64,000 bases of DNA from positions 2,286,490-2,350,489 of the forward strand of contig NZ_CM001437.1 in NCBI RefSeq assembly GCF_000243275.1, in the 5' to 3' direction. The translations under genes and the position numbers were made by a program. The notes beneath the pieces were generated by a model that was not told the DNA's origin, did no database searches, and worked only from the letters and a program-made list of their open reading frames with translations. The stretch comes from Myroides odoratus DSM 2801 (GTDB lineage: Bacteria; Bacteroidota; Bacteroidia; Flavobacteriales; Flavobacteriaceae). Below are positions 4,312 through 63,271 of the stretch, piece after piece; positions within the stretch are counted from its first letter, which is position 1; every line of letters starts with the position of its first letter.

Positions 4312-5036
4312 ATCAAATCCGCTGTTTTATTTTAGATGATGAGCCCATGGCGATTTCACTTTTGATGGAATATGCTAAAAAGATTCCTCAATTGTTGTTG
4401 GTTGGTTCTAGTACTTCAGCCTTGGAAGCTCTGAAGTTTTTTGAAGAAGAAACCATTGATTTGTTGTTCATCGATATTCAAATGCCTGAATTGACAGGGT
4501 TGCAAATTATGGATATTTTAGGCAATCGAACCAAGTATATCGTCACGTCTGCTTATAGTGAATATGCCTTAAAAGGATATGAATATCAAGTGTTGGATTA
4601 TTTGTTGAAACCCATTTCGTTTGAGCGTTTTTACAAGAGCGTTCAAAAGGCGAAAGAATATTTTCAACCTGTTGTTCAACCAAGTACTCCTGCTAGCTCA
4701 GCGCCACCAATAAAAGGAGATGCCGATTTCTTATTTGTCAAAACGGATGGAAAGCTAATTAAAATATTTTTGAAGGATTTACTTTTTGTCGAAGGATTAA
4801 AAGACTATTTGTGCTTACATTTAAGATTGGAAAAAATCATTATCCTCGATACGTTTCTTGAATTAGGAAAGAAATTGCCGTCCGATGATTTTATGCGGGT
4901 TCATAAATCGTATGTTGTGCGTTTGGATCAGATTGATACCATTGAGCGCAATCGAATTTTTATCAACGATAAAATTATTCCCATCGGCAAAACCTATGTG
5001 GACCATTTTCAACAATGGGTGAAGGAACATCATTGA
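4308..5036 (+). CDS. LytTR-family response regulator
   Basis: The 242-residue cytoplasmic protein has a REC domain at about 4-118, with acidic pair D11/D12, phospho-acceptor Asp56 in FIDIQMPE and conserved Lys101 in LLKPISF. A short Ser/Pro/Ala linker follows at about 122-135, then a C-terminal LytTR DNA-binding domain (about 140-240) with FMRVHKSYVV. It is coupled to the upstream kinase by a 4-base overlap and is its cognate partner. Targets are unknown; the divergent beta-barrel gene is the obvious candidate. Confidence 0.94.
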   Translation: MNQIRCFILDDEPMAISLLMEYAKKIPQLLLVGSSTSALEALKFFEEETIDLLFIDIQMPELTGLQIMDILGNRTKYIVTSAYSEYALKGYEYQVLDYLLKPISFERFYKSVQKAKEYFQPVVQPSTPASSAPPIKGDADFLFVKTDGKLIKIFLKDLLFVEGLKDYLCLHLRLEKIIILDTFLELGKKLPSDDFMRVHKSYVVRLDQIDTIERNRIFINDKIIPIGKTYVDHFQQWVKEHH

Positions 5037-56896: not shown

Positions 56897-59299
56897 TTAC
56901 TTATCTGCTAAGCGAAGAATATCTCCAAATACCCCTCTTGCTGTGACAGATGCACCTGCACCTGCACCTTGAATAATGATGGGGTTTTCACCATAACTTT
57001 CGGTATAGATTTCAAATAAACTGTCCGATCCTTGTAATTGCCCCAAAGCAGAATGAAGGGGAACTGCGATTAGTTTGGTTTCTAAAATACCTTTGTCTTG
57101 TTGTAAATCACCAGATAATTCCCCCACATAGCGCAATACCGTATCAGGTTGTAATGCCTGTTTTATTTTTTCAAAATAAGGATTTAATTGTTCCAATTGA
57201 GCAAGAAAAGTTGGCGTATCAATAGATTGTAATTCCAATGGAATGAGATTCTCAATTTGAATTTCTTCTAATTCATTTTGTAAATCTAGTTCTCGTGCTA
57301 AGATTAATAATTTGCGTCCAACATCATTGCCTGATAAGTCTTCTCGTGGATCGGGTTCTGTGTAGCCTTTGGCAATCGCCTCTTGTAAAACCGTACTGAA
57401 AGGTTGGTCCTGAACGGAATATTGATTGAAGATATAGCTTAGACTACCTGAAAATATCCCTTTGATTTTGGTGATATTTTCCCCAGATAGATGCAAGAGT
57501 TTAATGGTGTCAATTAACGGCAATCCCGCTCCAACATTGGTTTCGTATAAATACTCTTTGTGATTGGCTTTTAATTCCTTTCGCAAGGTCTTGTAAAAGT
57601 CATAGGAAACGGTATTGGCGATTTTGTTGGATGATATTAAATCAAAACCATGTTGAACCAAGGGAATATAGTGTTCAATAAATGCCTGAGAAGCTGTATT
57701 GTCTATAGCGATGAGGTTTTCTAAATGATGGTCTTTGGCAAAGGAAATCACTTCTTCGATTGTATAAGGAACCCCTTCTTGTGCTAATTCTTGACGCCAA
57801 TTGGCCGTGATTCCCGTTTCAGTGAACCATACCTTTTTGGAGTTTCCAATCGCAAAAATATGGAGGGCTATATTTTTCTTAGCAGTAATAGCTGTGGCAG
57901 AAGCCAAGACTTGATCAATCAATGTACCTCCCACAAGTCCGTGACCGAAAATAGCCAAATTGATTTTCTTGCTTATACCAAAAATCTGACCGTGAATAAC
58001 ATGCAAAGCTTTCTTTGCATCTTCTTGACGAACAACTAAACTAATATTTTTACCAGTCACCGTATTGTGAAAGAGTAGGGGCGTAATTTTATTTTTGACC
58101 AAGGCTGTATAGGGCTTGTCAAACGTCGTGAGATCCTGTCCAATGATAGACAGAATAGCAACGTCAGGTAAGAGGTGAATGGTGTCAACATCTTTGGATT
58201 GAAATTCCGCTTGAAATTCTTTCTGTAGTACCTCGACAGCACGGCTGGCTTTTTTCTGTTCTACCGTAAAACCCAGTCCGCGTTCTGAAGATCCTTGCGA
58301 AATTATACCCACACTGATACCCGCTTGAGCCAAGGCAGTAAAAATACGCGCATCAATACCAACAATTCCCAATAAACCACGTCCTTCCAGCTGAATCAAC
58401 GCAATATCAGATTGAACGGAAATCGATTTGATTCCTGCCGCAGTGGGGCGTGAAGAAATAAGGGTTCCTGTATTTTTTGGGTTTAAGGTATTTAAAATAC
58501 GCAGTGGAATATTGCTTTCTACCAACGGAAGAATCGTTTTGGCATGGAGGATGGAAGCACCAAAGTGTGCTAATTCATTGGCATCATCAAAATGTAACTC
58601 ATCAATCTTTTGTGCATTTTTAACCCAATCCGGATTTGCAGTATAGATACCATCAACATGGGTATAGTTTTGCAATTCGTCTGCTTGAAGAAAATTAGCG
58701 AGAAGGGCAGCAGAATAATTGCTGCCATTGCGGCCCAAGGTTGTCGTTTCTCCCTTTTCTGTGGCTCCAATAAAACCAGTCACTACAGCAAGTGTTTGAG
58801 TAGGGAGCCCTTTGAAGTAGATGGAAGTCTTTGCTTTCGATAAGTCTTCTTGCACTTGAGCCTGACCAAAAGTTGAGTCTGTCACAAAGAAATGACGACT
58901 ATCAACAGCCACAGCCTGAATGCCATGTTGAAGTAAGTGATGGGTTAGTACTTTACTTGAAATGACTTCCCCTTGAGCTAAGATTAAATCTTTGATTTTT
59001 AGACTGTAATCTTCAAGTAAAGAAACACCTTCATATAATTTTTGCAACAGCGTAAACTCCTCTTTTAAATCAATAGTTTGATGATAGGACTTTCCTTGAA
59101 AAGCAAGGAAAGGGGTGTGGTAATCAGCTTGATTTTTAGCTAAATCTAAGATGGCTTCTAAAACATCTGTGGTATCGCCAATCGCAGAAACGACGACAGC
59201 AATGGTGTCTTGTTCCGTTTTATCTTTTATAATTTGAATGACTTGGTCGAAAGCTTGTCCTGATGCAAGTGATTTTCCTCCAAACTTTAGAATTTTCAT
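56897..59299 (-). CDS. thrA: Bifunctional aspartate kinase / homoserine dehydrogenase I
   Basis: The 800-residue protein has an N-terminal aspartokinase with KFGGKSLASGQAF and TTTLGRNGSNYSAALLA. A regulatory ACT pair (about 290-440) contains GLLGIVGIDARIFTALAQAG. The homoserine dehydrogenase (about 455-800) has an NAD(P) motif FGHGLVGGTLIDQ, LISSNKIANTVSYDFY and YLYETNVGAGLPLI. It supplies homoserine from aspartate. It is the last gene of the methionine operon, 12 bases behind metX, under the Met-leader attenuator. Confidence 0.96.
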   Translation of the reverse strand: MKILKFGGKSLASGQAFDQVIQIIKDKTEQDTIAVVVSAIGDTTDVLEAILDLAKNQADYHTPFLAFQGKSYHQTIDLKEEFTLLQKLYEGVSLLEDYSLKIKDLILAQGEVISSKVLTHHLLQHGIQAVAVDSRHFFVTDSTFGQAQVQEDLSKAKTSIYFKGLPTQTLAVVTGFIGATEKGETTTLGRNGSNYSAALLANFLQADELQNYTHVDGIYTANPDWVKNAQKIDELHFDDANELAHFGASILHAKTILPLVESNIPLRILNTLNPKNTGTLISSRPTAAGIKSISVQSDIALIQLEGRGLLGIVGIDARIFTALAQAGISVGIISQGSSERGLGFTVEQKKASRAVEVLQKEFQAEFQSKDVDTIHLLPDVAILSIIGQDLTTFDKPYTALVKNKITPLLFHNTVTGKNISLVVRQEDAKKALHVIHGQIFGISKKINLAIFGHGLVGGTLIDQVLASATAITAKKNIALHIFAIGNSKKVWFTETGITANWRQELAQEGVPYTIEEVISFAKDHHLENLIAIDNTASQAFIEHYIPLVQHGFDLISSNKIANTVSYDFYKTLRKELKANHKEYLYETNVGAGLPLIDTIKLLHLSGENITKIKGIFSGSLSYIFNQYSVQDQPFSTVLQEAIAKGYTEPDPREDLSGNDVGRKLLILARELDLQNELEEIQIENLIPLELQSIDTPTFLAQLEQLNPYFEKIKQALQPDTVLRYVGELSGDLQQDKGILETKLIAVPLHSALGQLQGSDSLFEIYTESYGENPIIIQGAGAGASVTARGVFGDILRLADK

Positions 59300-59311: not shown

Positions 59312-60277
59312 TTAAAAAAGAGGTTGTAATAAGGTTTGTAACTGTTGGTATTCTATGAGAAAAGCATCGTGACCGTGTATGGACTGTATCTCTTTGTATT
59401 GGATATCAGCGCCATAAGCGTATAATTTACAATAGGTTTCTCGTTGTTCTTTTTGTGTAAACATCCCATCACTGTCCACCGTTATCATGGTAATCTGGGT
59501 GGTGGTAGTTAGGGCGAATTGCTTGACTTGTTCTTCTGTTAACGCTTTACCGATGGTTTGGAGCAAGTGATTCATCAGTTGATAAGCTGCCAATTGAAAG
59601 CGCTTTTGTAAGGCATGACCGTGATAGGTCAGCCATTGTTCAACGGGGTGAATTTGATCCATGCTTTGCTGCTCTCGAGTAAATTTCTGATTGATCGATT
59701 CAGGCGTTCGATAGAGCAGCATGGCGTGTTTGCGCGCGTCTTCTAACGGATGTTTGGAGTGATTGAGAATGGCTTCTTGTACAACAACCTGACCAATCAA
59801 CCAATCTGAGGCTTGTATATTGGTCGCAATGGGAATCAAGTGGTGAATCGCTTCTGGTCGTTGTAAAGCCATTTCCCAAGCTATACTGCCACCTAAACTC
59901 CCACCGATGACTGCATAGAGTTGGGGAACTTGAAGGAAATCCAATCCCTTCCAAAATACATCCGCAATCACAGCCGTGGTAAATGCAGTATAGTTGGGGA
60001 GTAATTGCTCCGGTTTATTTCCATAACCATTGCCTGGAATATTAAAGGCCAAAACAGTATATCGATTTAAATCAATCACTTGATCATAACCAATCACTTG
60101 ATTCCACCATCCTTGCTCTCCCGTGACAGTACTATTTCCCGTTAAAGCGTGATTAACCAAGATAACGGGAGCTTGATGCAAGGGTTGACCAAAAACCTCA
60201 TAGTTCAAATACAAGGTTTGCGCAGTTTGATCGGGTAAGCGATAAGCTGTAAGTTGGATGGTGTGTAAGTGATGCAT
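59312..60277 (-). CDS. metX: Homoserine O-acetyltransferase (MetX-like alpha/beta hydrolase)
   Basis: The 321-residue protein is shorter than typical MetX (350-380), mainly in the lid. The oxyanion region is ILVNHALTGNSTVTGE, then FNIPGNGYGNKPE. The nucleophile Ser is in VIGGSLGGSIAWEMA, and Asp (TVDSDGMFT) and His (SIHGHDAFL) complete the triad. It acetylates homoserine from ThrA for MetY. It lies between metY (32-base gap) and thrA (12-base gap). Confidence 0.92.
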   Translation of the reverse strand: MHHLHTIQLTAYRLPDQTAQTLYLNYEVFGQPLHQAPVILVNHALTGNSTVTGEQGWWNQVIGYDQVIDLNRYTVLAFNIPGNGYGNKPEQLLPNYTAFTTAVIADVFWKGLDFLQVPQLYAVIGGSLGGSIAWEMALQRPEAIHHLIPIATNIQASDWLIGQVVVQEAILNHSKHPLEDARKHAMLLYRTPESINQKFTREQQSMDQIHPVEQWLTYHGHALQKRFQLAAYQLMNHLLQTIGKALTEEQVKQFALTTTTQITMITVDSDGMFTQKEQRETYCKLYAYGADIQYKEIQSIHGHDAFLIEYQQLQTLLQPLF

Positions 60278-60309: not shown

Positions 60310-61587
60310 TTATACTAAGTTTTTGAAAACACGAGCCAAGTCTTGCTGTAAATCTTCTACAGATTCAATGCCGACAGAAAGGCGAACTAAATCAGGCGTT
60401 ACTCCCGTTGCCTTTTGCTCCTGTACAGTTAGTTGTTGATGTGTTGTAGAAGCAGGGTGAATGATAAGTGATTTTGTATCTCCTATATTTGCCACTAAAG
60501 AAAAAAGCTGCGTGTCATTGGCTACCGTTTTAGCGGCTTCAAATCCTTTTTTCAATCCAAATGTAATAACCCCACTTTGTCCTTCAGGTAAATAAATTTG
60601 AGCGAGTTTGTGATACGGACTTGAGGATAACCCAGGGTAATTTACCCAAGCTACTGCATCTTGTTTATTTAGCCATTCCGCTAGGGCTAATGCATTTTCG
60701 CTGTGTTTTTTTAAGCGTATAGCTAAGGTTTCTAAGCCTTGGATAATTTGAAAAGCATTAAAAGGACTCAAAGCTGCTCCTAAATCGCGTAAACCCTCTA
60801 AGCGTATCTTGCCAATAAAGGCCGCTTTTCCAAGCGCTTCATGGTAAACTAATCCATGGTAACCGGCTGCAGGCTCAGTGAATTCCGGAAATTTCCCATT
60901 GCTCCAATCGAAAGTACCGGCATCAATGATAGCACCACCTAAGGCCGTACCATTGCCTGAAATATATTTAGTTAGGGAGTGAATTACAATATCTGCTCCG
61001 TGTTCAATGGGTCTGAGTAAAGCAGGAGAAGGGACAGTATTGTCCACAATAAAAGGAATATGATGGGCTTGCGCAATTTGAGCAACACCTTTTAGATCAA
61101 TTACATCTAACTTGGGATTACCGAGACTCTCAACAAAAATAGCTTTGGTATTTTGTTGGATATTCTGACTGAAATTCGCCAAGTCAGTTGGATCGACAAA
61201 CGTCGTGTGAATGCCCAATCGAGGTAATGTAACATTGAGTAAATTATACGTCCCTCCATATAAGCTATTTGATGCAACAAGGTGATCTCCTGCTTTTAAT
61301 AAGGTTAATAGGGTTGTGCTAATTGCCGAAGCACCTGAAGCGGTTACAACTGCGCCGATTCCACCCTCAAGTGCAGCTAAGCGCTGCTCTAAGATATCAT
61401 TGGTTGGATTGTTTAATCGGGTATAGATAAACGCAGGAATGGATAGATTAAAAGCTCCTGCTGCATGATCTGCATTGTCAAATACATACGAAGAAGTTTG
61501 ATAAATAGGAACGGCTCTCGATCCTGCGGTTTGATTTACTTGATGTCCAGCGTGTAAAGCTTGGGTTGAAAAATGAAAATTGCTCAT
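60310..61587 (-). CDS. metY: O-acetylhomoserine sulfhydrylase (PLP-dependent, MetY)
   Basis: The start is ATG 61587 (425 residues); the longer frame runs into the leader terminator. Typical Cys/Met-metabolism PLP features are TRLNNPTNDILEQRLAALEG, ASGASAISTTLL, the PLP lysine in IVIHSLTKYISGNGTALGG and the C-terminal VRLSVGIESVEDLQQDL. It forms homocysteine from O-acetylhomoserine and sulfide. It is the first structural gene after the Met-rich leader and terminator at 61621-61653. Confidence 0.96.
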   Translation of the reverse strand: MSNFHFSTQALHAGHQVNQTAGSRAVPIYQTSSYVFDNADHAAGAFNLSIPAFIYTRLNNPTNDILEQRLAALEGGIGAVVTASGASAISTTLLTLLKAGDHLVASNSLYGGTYNLLNVTLPRLGIHTTFVDPTDLANFSQNIQQNTKAIFVESLGNPKLDVIDLKGVAQIAQAHHIPFIVDNTVPSPALLRPIEHGADIVIHSLTKYISGNGTALGGAIIDAGTFDWSNGKFPEFTEPAAGYHGLVYHEALGKAAFIGKIRLEGLRDLGAALSPFNAFQIIQGLETLAIRLKKHSENALALAEWLNKQDAVAWVNYPGLSSSPYHKLAQIYLPEGQSGVITFGLKKGFEAAKTVANDTQLFSLVANIGDTKSLIIHPASTTHQQLTVQEQKATGVTPDLVRLSVGIESVEDLQQDLARVFKNLV

Positions 61588-61620
61588 AAGATTAGTATTA
61601 AAGAATGGAAAAAATGAAAT

Positions 61621-61653
61621 AAAAAAAAGCCCCACCGGCAGACCGATGAGACT
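61621..61653 (-). terminator. Attenuator: intrinsic terminator in the metY leader
   Basis: On the minus strand the stem AGTCTCATCGG pairs with CCGGTGGGGCT (11 pairs, some G-U) around a TCTG loop, then eight T. It lies 29 bases after the leader stop and 33 bases before the metY ATG. A terminator in front of the first gene of an operon is the hallmark of attenuation. Confidence 0.85.
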
Positions 61654-61703
61654 TCAACTAATTTATCCTATTACAAAAGAGGTTAACTTGCTGACTTTCG
61701 GCC
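61641..61703 (-). promoter_or_regulatory. Possible antiterminator pairing in the metY leader
   Basis: GGCCGA in leader codons 23-25 (plus 61698-61703) can pair, with one G-U, to TCGGTC in the left side of the terminator stem and its loop (plus 61641-61646). A ribosome stalled in the Met run would leave GGCCGA free. A ribosome at the stop codon would cover it. This is a manual pairing, not a computed fold. Confidence 0.4.
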
Positions 61704-61772
61704 ATGACGGGATATGAACATCATCATGTTCATATTCATAGGCATCATCATTTGGTTAACTTTTAAAATCAT
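61683..61772 (-). CDS. Met-rich leader peptide of the metY-metX-thrA operon
   Basis: A 29-codon frame on the minus strand starts at ATG 61772 and stops at 61683. Codons 8-18 read MMMPMNMNMMM, eight Met in eleven; nine of 29 residues are Met in all. The rest is MILKVNQ before and FISRHGRKSAS after. A terminator follows 29 bases later and then metY, the homocysteine-forming enzyme. Translation should be sensitive to charged elongator Met-tRNA. There is no Shine-Dalgarno, as usual in the group. The role is inferred; the coding run is seen directly. Confidence 0.75.
   Translation of the reverse strand: MILKVNQMMMPMNMNMMMFISRHGRKSAS
61712..61735 (-). promoter_or_regulatory. Perfect 10-bp hairpin inside the Met-codon run
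   Basis: ATATGAACAT and ATGTTCATAT flank a GATG loop within leader codons 13-20. It may be the pause (1:2-like) hairpin that couples polymerase to the first ribosome, or a translation-slowing element. Confidence 0.55.
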
Positions 61773-61894
61773 GGTTTGGTTTTTTTACTGAATCAATGTA
61801 AAAAAGATTATTTTTTCAGCTTCCTTTTTTTGGATTGATTGTAGAGCAAATTTCTGTAAAATATTTTGAATAGTAGTTATAAAAACTTGAAATA

Positions 61895-62602
61895 CTATAA
61901 TTTTAGATAAAAATTCTGAACAAGGGTAGTGAACTCAGGGGTGTAACAGTGTCTTTTTTCTTCAATTACCAGTTCATTTAGTGGAATTTTCTCTATGCGT
62001 GTTCTGGAAAAGGCAAGTAAACTGCGTTTAATCTCACTTGTAGGCGTTCCTTTTACACGTGTAACCTGTAGCGGGTAGATGTCAAACTCAGCAGCGAGGT
62101 ACATGATGCGTTCTTCTTCTTTAGCAGGAACGATGATACTAAATACTCCCTTTTCGGATAAAAAGTATTCGACAGCCTCCATGAGTAAATCAAAGGGAAG
62201 CGAGTCTTGAAAACGCGCTTGGTCTCTTTTCTCGTCTTGGGTACGGTAATCTTCACTATAAAAAGGAGGATTGGAAACAATTAAATCATATTCCTCATCC
62301 ATGCCATTGGCAAAATCTTCTAAACCCGCATGGTAACAGAATAAACGATCACCCCAAGGGCTATTTTCAAAATTTTCAATGGCTTGTTCATGGGCATCCG
62401 CATCAATTTCAACCGCATCAATTTGTTCTGCATCGGTGCGTTGTGCAAGCATTAAGGCGATTAATCCTGTACCTGTACCAATGTCCAAGATCTTGGTAGG
62501 ATAATGGTCAACGGGAGTCCAAGCACCTAAAAGTACACCATCTGTACCTACTTTCATGGCACATTTATCTTGTTCTATCGTGAATTGTTTGAATTGAAAC
62601 AT
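61895..62602 (-). CDS. trmN6: tRNA1(Val) (adenine(37)-N6)-methyltransferase (TrmN6/YfiC)
   Basis: The 235-residue protein has a SAM-binding motif ILDIGTGTGLIALMLAQR (about 37-54), then DAVEIDADAHEQA and the adenine-N6 methyltransferase motif DLIVSNPPFY. The N-terminal FKQFTIEQDKCAMKVGTDG is the TrmN6 pattern. It modifies A37 of tRNA-Val. It stands alone, upstream of the met leader on the same strand. Confidence 0.93.
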   Translation of the reverse strand: MFQFKQFTIEQDKCAMKVGTDGVLLGAWTPVDHYPTKILDIGTGTGLIALMLAQRTDAEQIDAVEIDADAHEQAIENFENSPWGDRLFCYHAGLEDFANGMDEEYDLIVSNPPFYSEDYRTQDEKRDQARFQDSLPFDLLMEAVEYFLSEKGVFSIIVPAKEEERIMYLAAEFDIYPLQVTRVKGTPTSEIKRSLLAFSRTRIEKIPLNELVIEEKRHCYTPEFTTLVQNFYLKL

Positions 62603-62759
62603 AAGTATGAATGTAATTTTGACGCTTCAAAAGTACGAAAAAAGTAAAGGCAAGTCCTTGTTGAATGTATCTGATCTCGCTTACTATTAGATGGTGTTCT
62701 GCAGCGATAAGAAAGAGACTGAAATGAAAAGTGAATAGTACTTACTGTCAAAAAATATT

Positions 62760-62767
62760 TACATTTG
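62760..62767 (+). promoter_or_regulatory. Candidate -7 promoter box of the small membrane-protein gene
   Basis: TACATTTG is a perfect TAnnTTTG, 24 bases before the ATG at 62792. Confidence 0.45.
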
Positions 62768-62791
62768 GACTAACCTTATAATAGAACAACC

Positions 62792-63271
62792 ATGGAAACA
62801 AAACTTTTATTACCTCATTCATATAAAAAGATTGGATGGATTTTTATAGGTATTAGCGTATTGATTTGGATTTACGCTCTTATTTTAGGGCAAGGAGGCA
62901 TTCTTTTTGGAGATCTTCCTTTTCTGAATCTACATGCTTTTGCAATAGTAGGCACCCAGTTATTTAAAGGAGAAACTAGTTATTTTAGCATTATAGAGGT
63001 AAACCTTACTACTACATTGATGGGAAGTTTATTTTTGGTCGGTGGACTACTTATCGCTTTTTCAAAAGAAAAAATAGAGAATGAAGTTATTGCAAAATTG
63101 CGTTCGCAAGCTTTTCAGTGGTCTTTTCTTGTTAACTATGTCTTATTGCTTTTTTTGTTTCTATTTATTTATGGTGCAGAATTCTATTATGTCATGGTTT
63201 ACAATATGTTTGCAATGTTAATTTTGTTTATTTGTCGCTTTAACTATTTATTGTATTTAAACAAGAAGTAA
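62792..63271 (+). CDS. Hypothetical membrane protein (four helices)
   Basis: The 159-residue protein has four hydrophobic helices (about 14-33, 65-88, 107-130, 135-153), a short cytoplasmic tail and no catalytic motif. It is placed just upstream of a decayed XRE regulator, an arrangement common for DUF2178-like and other small membrane proteins that pair with an XRE regulator. The family cannot be named. Confidence 0.6.
   Translation: METKLLLPHSYKKIGWIFIGISVLIWIYALILGQGGILFGDLPFLNLHAFAIVGTQLFKGETSYFSIIEVNLTTTLMGSLFLVGGLLIAFSKEKIENEVIAKLRSQAFQWSFLVNYVLLLFLFLFIYGAEFYYVMVYNMFAMLILFICRFNYLLYLNKK

Follow-up and report, generated by a model that had tools for sequence, protein, structure and literature searches.

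A methionine-rich leader ORF and predicted terminator before metY in Myroides odoratus, read as a candidate ribosome-mediated attenuator

The DNA in front of the metY gene of Myroides odoratus DSM 2801 raises the question of how this operon senses its end product. Familiar regulators of methionine genes are SAM riboswitches, MetJ, and T-boxes, and leader-peptide transcription attenuators are known for the trp, his, leu, thr, pheA, and ilv operons. Shine–Dalgarno use is weak in Bacteroidota. The window, the whole stretch of 64,000 nucleotides that was analyzed, carries the following genes of the operon:

60310..61587, minus strand: metY, O-acetylhomoserine sulfhydrylase, 425 aa (TIGR01326, 625.8 bits against a cut-off of 495.1)
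59312..60277, minus strand: metX-like homoserine O-acetyltransferase, 321 aa (164.1 bits, below the cut-off of 331)
56897..59299, minus strand: thrA, bifunctional aspartate kinase/homoserine dehydrogenase, 800 aa (NF006959, 758.9 against 726)

The original prediction had named a metY-metX-thrA operon, which stands for metY and thrA, both above their cut-offs. The middle gene is only MetX-like, and because it scores below the curated cut-off, the name metX rests on homology and context. Among the best matches of 568 relatives, the closest named MetY is 97% identical and belongs to Myroides odoratus strain XSfan, followed by two more Myroides at 91 and 89% and by Flavobacterium species at 74-78%. 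Upstream of metY lie these elements:

61621..61628, minus strand: run of eight T
61626..61655, minus strand: predicted intrinsic terminator hairpin, 13 pairs, 6 of them G-C, loop of 4, -17.6 kcal/mol
61641..61646, minus strand: segment 3, TCGGTC, 3' half of the antiterminator, in the terminator 5' arm and loop, identified by pairing and covariation
61698..61703, minus strand: segment 2, GGCCGA, 5' half of the antiterminator, inside the ORF, with a covarying pairing with segment 3 in 34 type B leaders
61712..61735, minus strand: hairpin 1 (ATATGAACAT GATG ATGTTCATAT) over the Met codons, -9.7 kcal/mol
61719..61751, minus strand: putative regulatory codons 8-18, MMMPMNMNMMM, 8 Met in 11 codons
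61683..61772, minus strand: Met-rich leader ORF of 29 codons, type B, peptide MILKVNQMMMPMNMNMMMFISRHGRKSAS
61847..61854, minus strand: candidate promoter -7 element GAAATTTG, of the TAnnTTTG type with the first T missing
61895-62602: trmN-like gene, upstream neighbor of the leader, which lies between it and metY

The ORF of 29 codons with eight Met in eleven that had been predicted on the minus strand before metY is indeed present at 61772-61683, and metY does begin 33 bases past the T run, with its ATG at 61587. The terminator with eight T after the ORF also holds, the distance from stop codon to stem being 27 bases and not the 29 first given.

The leader is most probably, with a likelihood of roughly 85%, a ribosome-mediated transcription attenuator responding to the availability of charged Met-tRNA. 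This reading is built from sequence comparison, on the ORF, the predicted terminator, a mutually exclusive pairing, conservation, covariation, and the absence of such leaders from metY loci that have a SAM-I riboswitch. From these, we infer a promoter, leader translation, stalling, termination, tRNA sensing, and a response with its direction. As RNA polymerase transcribes the leader, a ribosome would translate the 29-codon ORF. If Met-tRNA is ample, the ribosome would reach the stop codon and cover segment 2 (61703-61698), the terminator (61655-61626, U8) would form, and transcription would end before metY. When Met-tRNA is short, the ribosome would halt at codons 8-18 and disrupt the hairpin over the Met codons. 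Segment 2, thus freed, would pair with segment 3 in the terminator 5' arm, and metY-metX-thrA would be transcribed.

Three features of trp/his-type attenuators are found here: a short leader ORF in which codons for the pathway product cluster, an antiterminator that excludes the terminator and starts just past the regulatory codons (segment 2 follows the last Met codon by 15 nt), and an intrinsic terminator between leader ORF and first gene, which is present by sequence and covaries in relatives. Among the window's ORFs of 15-60 codons, this is the only one with five or more ATG in 11 codons (start excluded), and the maximum in 60 first-order Markov windows of 64 kb each was four, against eight in the leader. 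Met shortage would also cut fMet initiation on the leader, which is a problem for any Met-sensing leader peptide.

The distribution of the leader was followed across metY loci. A MetY-like protein is encoded in 199 of 199 genomes of the family, and a close one (E 1e-135 or lower) in 137; the remaining 62 have only a distant paralogue as their best match. One scanning procedure, reaching up to 900 nt upstream, was applied to 158 loci, consisting of 130 of the 137 family loci (the 30 best-scoring and 100 more; G037, G051, G064, G151, G153, G170, and G174 were left out) and 28 from the genus, where a close MetY is present in 37 of 61 genomes. Seven further genus loci with a close MetY (L169-L175) stand outside the counts, and loci with short upstream sequence, such as L007 with 386 nt, were retained as having no element. 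SAM-I, detected by a profile made from 17 Rfam hits, precedes metY at 94 of the 158 loci, and a Met/Cys leader ORF with terminator is found at none of these 94. Leader and terminator are present at 43 of the 64 loci without SAM-I (27 with one leader, 16 with two), four have the ORF only, and 17 have neither ORF nor terminator-linked leader. The automatic scan includes L103 and overlooks L156, the hand list does the opposite, and both come to 43 loci.

Within the family, SAM-I takes the leader's place at 94 of 130 loci, an exchange that the original prediction did not contain; the hand list places leaders at 15 and leaves 21 with neither. Rfam searches of 20 of these 21 loci found SAM-II upstream on the metY strand in 11, at about 1.3 kb in ten and at 54 nt in L082. 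In L103, SAM-II lies on the opposite strand, and in L080 and L103 SAM-I occurs only downstream of the metY start. Among the closest named loci (80 kept of 568), the automatic scan finds leader and terminator at 75, 31 of them with two leaders, SAM-I at four, neither at one, and both at none; the named and unnamed sets may overlap, so their counts are not additive. By parsimony on a quick MetY tree, the state changes between SAM and leader at least 10 times, of which the well-supported branches (25 of 155) force two. SAM-I was present in 49 of 61 genomes of the genus sample under strict filters; with the same filters, none was found in the window's clade (G000, G256, G218, G216, and G239) or in seven others of the sample, and a genome-wide search of the window genome likewise found no SAM-I. 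The family offers, at this one gene, a natural exchange series among SAM-I, SAM-II, and leader peptide.

The leaders fall into two types, A and B, assigned by eye in a hand list (32 leaders of type A, 34 of type B), and 23 of the 43 hand-listed loci carry both in series, a feature also absent from the original prediction. Type A stands first and often has a core like NMCMMMWKxSAEDSIV; type B stands second, is richer in Met and Cys, and frequently has YCQK or a similar sequence at its end. Only type B is present in the window and in L131, its nearest kin; three other members of this clade, L132, L133, and L140, carry both types. The 122 bases separating trmN from the ORF were inspected for a type A leader, and none was seen; the type A model, R1, run on the window genome under strict filters, also gave no hit at E 0.01. 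The type B model, R2, matches the leader at G000:C1:2348111-2348225 (E 4.8e-10), the window being a row of its training alignment. Tandem A and B leaders before metY also occur beyond Flavobacteriaceae, in L184 (G445, another family of the class) and in L216 (a Saprospiraceae MAG), for which transfer, a misassigned bin, or an older origin are the options.

In the window's clade, the Met columns of the leader ORF are kept. When the window is compared with seven related leaders over codons 2-18 (L213 omitted, as its peptide equals the window's; L131 and L214 read from an inner ATG), identity is found in 46 of 56 cells of the Met columns and in 18 of 63 cells of the remaining ones. The fraction of Met plus Cys is 0.25 in the ORF frame of type A against 0.10 and 0.05 in the other two frames, and 0.35 in type B against 0.10 and 0.02. 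Cys is also encoded in 59 of the 66 listed leaders (27 of 32 A, 32 of 34 B), by both TGT and TGC, which had not been part of the original prediction. The alignment that had been proposed as a check supports the prediction: Met codons, terminator, and pairings are kept in relatives, at the 75 named loci and in the covariation described below, and other bases vary.

A Met-rich nascent peptide could instead act as an arrest peptide that responds to free methionine or SAM inside the ribosome tunnel and works the same RNA switch. Many type A leaders across genera do share the recurring core NMCxMMW, and SAM or Met would be a logical signal, given that SAM-I holds the same site at most family loci. 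Arrest peptides usually keep a fixed motif, however, and in these leaders Met positions shift, and Met and Cys interchange. The conserved C-terminal residues sit in covarying base pairs and so need no peptide function, and an arrest peptide is accordingly judged improbable.

The attenuator reading depends on alternative RNA structures, and these covary. The alignments were built without structure, the tested pairs were named after the alignments had been inspected, and the controls do not take out the effect of relatedness. In the type A antiterminator, 86.8% of cells are paired and five of six pairs changed on both sides; in type B, with the window included, the values are 80.7% and nine of 13. 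The terminators are paired in 96.9% of cells in type A (six of seven pairs changed on both sides) and 96.7% in type B (six of nine). Each antiterminator measure was reached by at most one of 500 shuffles. For the terminators, 6 of 500 shuffles in type A and 31 in type B attained the measure "further pair types", and no more than two attained any other measure. Sliding the pair partners by 1-3 columns lowers all measures. Counting against the antiterminators, the sixth type A pair is paired in 15 of 30 leaders and one type B pair in 14 of 32.

Close relatives keep the pairings through changes of their own. L215 reads GGCCGG in segment 2 and CCGGTC in segment 3, where the window has GGCCGA and TCGGTC, and in L213 the terminator 3' arm differs by one base; pairing is preserved in both. 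The arms of hairpin 1, which in the predicted fold is part of a longer stem that also absorbs part of segment 2, vary together by eye as GAAC/GTTC, GAGC/GCTC (L133), and GGAC/GTCC (L140). Type A leaders have a short hairpin right after the last Met codon (TGTGGA..TCCGCA and changed forms), more stable than 95% of shuffles in 14 of 32, which in the fold would hide segment 2.

In both types, the ORF 3' end resembles the terminator 3' arm and can therefore pair with the terminator 5' arm. The mean duplex energy of the ORF tail in type A is -12.4 with its own terminator, compared with -9.4 for other terminators of the set and -7.4 for shuffles; in type B, the three means are -12.1, -9.7, and -8.6. 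Swapping in another terminator weakens the duplex in 748 of 986 (A) and 782 of 1090 (B) cases; in the remaining 238 and 308, which count against specificity, another species' terminator pairs equally or more strongly. For individual leaders, the antiterminator duplex is stronger than 95% of shuffles in just 20 of 32 A and 10 of 34 B, which is also counted against it.

The effect of ribosome position was modeled by removing the RNA up to 14 nt past the A-site codon and cutting it before the terminator 3' arm. The predicted probability of the window's antiterminator is 0.51 averaged over stalls at the Met codons, 0.25 in naked RNA, and 0.00 at the stop codon. Because the masking rule itself removes segment 2, the last value shows geometry and not energy, namely, within this model, that segment 2 lies between the regulatory codons and the stop. 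Stalling raises the predicted antiterminator probability by more than 0.2 over the stop-codon value in 62 of 66 leaders (all 32 of type A and 30 of the 34 of type B), the zero at the stop again following from the masking rule; over the naked-RNA value, a gain of more than 0.2 is predicted in only 19 of 32 A and 10 of 34 B. Four of the 34 type B leaders form no antiterminator under the rule used, which is counted against the reading. In naked RNA, the predicted antiterminator probability is 0.00-0.01 in L131, L132, L133, and L140 and 0.5-0.8 in many other type B leaders. A default-off state is thus not general, because many untranslated type B RNAs are predicted to antiterminate about as well as stalled ones.

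This last result favors an element made of RNA only, a riboswitch of a new type or a protein-binding site, in which the ORF would be incidental and the ATG repeats structural. The span of hairpin 1 over the Met codons, with arms that change together, points the same way, as does the occurrence of A/B-like elements with few Met/Cys codons before osmC-like and metX genes. Such an element would not explain why Met and Cys codons are enriched in the ORF frame and far less in the other two, nor why Met columns are kept while neighboring columns change. Met (ATG) and Cys (TGT/TGC) codons differ at all three positions, yet they interchange, and no Rfam family matches the leader at gathering score. 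An RNA-only element is therefore considered highly unlikely. A known riboswitch in the window's leader was rejected, as neither SAM-I nor SAM-II appeared at gathering score or among the weak Rfam matches; the weak cmscan matches on the leader strand that were inspected (ctRNA_pGA1 and PyrR) merely trace the terminator hairpin.

The hairpin scan by itself is not significant (two terminators in 60500-62800 against 1.8 expected) and the folding z of the 204-nt leader is -2.61, with five of 200 shuffles equally low. Upstream of the first leader ORF, NAnnTTTG occurs within 10-100 nt at 32 of 43 loci (shuffled mean 12.0, maximum 20), and the strict TAnnTTTG, which we take to be the Bacteroidota-type promoter -7 element, at 15 of 43 (shuffled mean 3.8, maximum 9). 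The notion that the hairpin, located as it is between trmN and metY, merely ends the trmN-like gene and that metY has its own downstream promoter is hardly credible, given a terminator after the leader at 75 of the 80 named loci, its covariation with the ORF end in 66 aligned leaders, the promoter-like element enriched upstream of the leader ORF (the side that the motif scan covered), and just 33 bases between T run and metY.

The same elements are also found before other genes. In relatives, the A and B models match before cysH, metX, and osmC-like genes, some of the gene names being given by resemblance only. A search of the class at E 1e-4 with strict filters found R1 in 6 and R2 in 16 of 295 genomes, several of the weak R2 matches probably being chance. 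Met/Cys leaders stand before cysH, a gene of sulfate assimilation, in L163 (4787-5093), L165 (1606-1728), and L186 (1501-1604, the gene named by resemblance). Four cysH leaders, a small sample, encode 12 Met (starts excluded) and 15 Cys, so that Cys is relatively commoner.

In some Flavobacterium-like genomes, metX is preceded by an A-like leader, a B-like leader, and SAM-I in series, with few Met/Cys codons in the leaders:

L159 (4494-6445), L166, L172, L175, L178, and L205: stack of A-like leader, B-like leader, and SAM-I before metX

The window genome itself contains a second A and B pair, at 4389-4658 on the minus strand of L160 (G000:C1:1564000-1570500). It precedes an OsmC-family gene (PF02566, 28.7 bits against 27.5) and then an ABC transporter ATPase, and its peptides have only one or two Met and one Cys each, start excluded. 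A weak R1 match, of 30.7 bits, lies at the osmC-like locus. That A/B-like elements precede genes with Met/Cys-poor leaders, and stand together with SAM-I before metX, is counted against the attenuator reading.

It can be tentatively proposed, at a little below even odds, that flavobacteria have a sulfur amino acid circuit of serial attenuators, A then B, in which the Met/Cys mix follows the gene (wholly or almost wholly Met at metY in the clade of the window, more Cys before cysH) and a third sensor, SAM-I, is added at metX in some Flavobacterium. One transcript might then integrate Met-tRNA, Cys-tRNA, and SAM, and the lineage might swap tRNA sensing for SAM sensing at metY.

Compared with the trp, his, leu, thr, pheA, and ilv attenuators, the metY leaders share a short ORF of cognate codons, an alternative antiterminator, a terminator, and a biosynthetic operon; they differ in the amino acid, Met (with Cys in relatives), in belonging to Bacteroidota, and in having two complete attenuators serially in many relatives. 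SAM-I (RF00162) occupies the same position before metY in other Flavobacteriaceae, and in 11 of 20 further loci SAM-II (RF01726) is found on the metY strand ahead of the gene, but both bind SAM, involve no ORF, and were not detected in the window's metY leader. The mechanism proposed from sequence is a known one; the amino acid and the lineage are what is new. Canestrari and colleagues reportedly described cysteine-rich leader ORFs of cys operons in Actinobacteria in 2020. Cys-rich leader ORFs before cys operons of Actinobacteria were predicted earlier, and resemble the metY leaders in carrying sulfur amino acid codons; in the available part of that paper, they have no conserved terminator hairpin, and no conserved RNA structures are reported upstream of methionine operons (PMC1262725). 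Leader-peptide attenuation of ilv is described in the accessible text of PMC13236596. The Salmonella mgtCBR leader, which has tandem attenuators, is, in the available sections, a "singular example" with two short ORFs, one of which senses charged tRNA (Pro) by its codons (PMC3641672). Two short ORFs per leader are likewise seen in relatives of the window, which itself has one leader; mgtCBR differs in that its signals are ATP and proline and its operon serves transport and virulence (PMC3641672, same sections). For F. psychrophilum, clues for leader-peptide attenuation before amino acid operons have been given, and the main text as available names conserved 5' elements before pheA, hisG, and others, not metY, which its supplement may list (PMC9723704). 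The term "leader peptide" does not occur in the available portion of a paper on proteobacterial methionine regulation (PMC4239095). In the open literature searched, parts of which were available as excerpts, no Met-codon leader peptide for a methionine operon was found, and an earlier prediction is possible.

The comparison of relatives strongly supports, at the level of sequence, the leader-peptide attenuation first proposed for this operon. An attenuator of this kind would imply a coupling of transcription and translation in Bacteroidota tight enough for attenuation. A natural and widespread leader that counts Met would also allow the fMet-initiation paradox to be tested.

A few minor observations concern the neighboring genes of the pathway. 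A split or frameshifted metX in Flavobacterium, suspected from ORF lists restricted to ATG starts, was rejected, as the frame is open. In L172 (3640-4760) and L159 (5360-6480), metX has an apparent non-ATG start, and ATG-only ORF calling shortens the gene. The window genome has a SAM-II before metK, in L293 (G000:C1:437992-438051), the only SAM-II found there.
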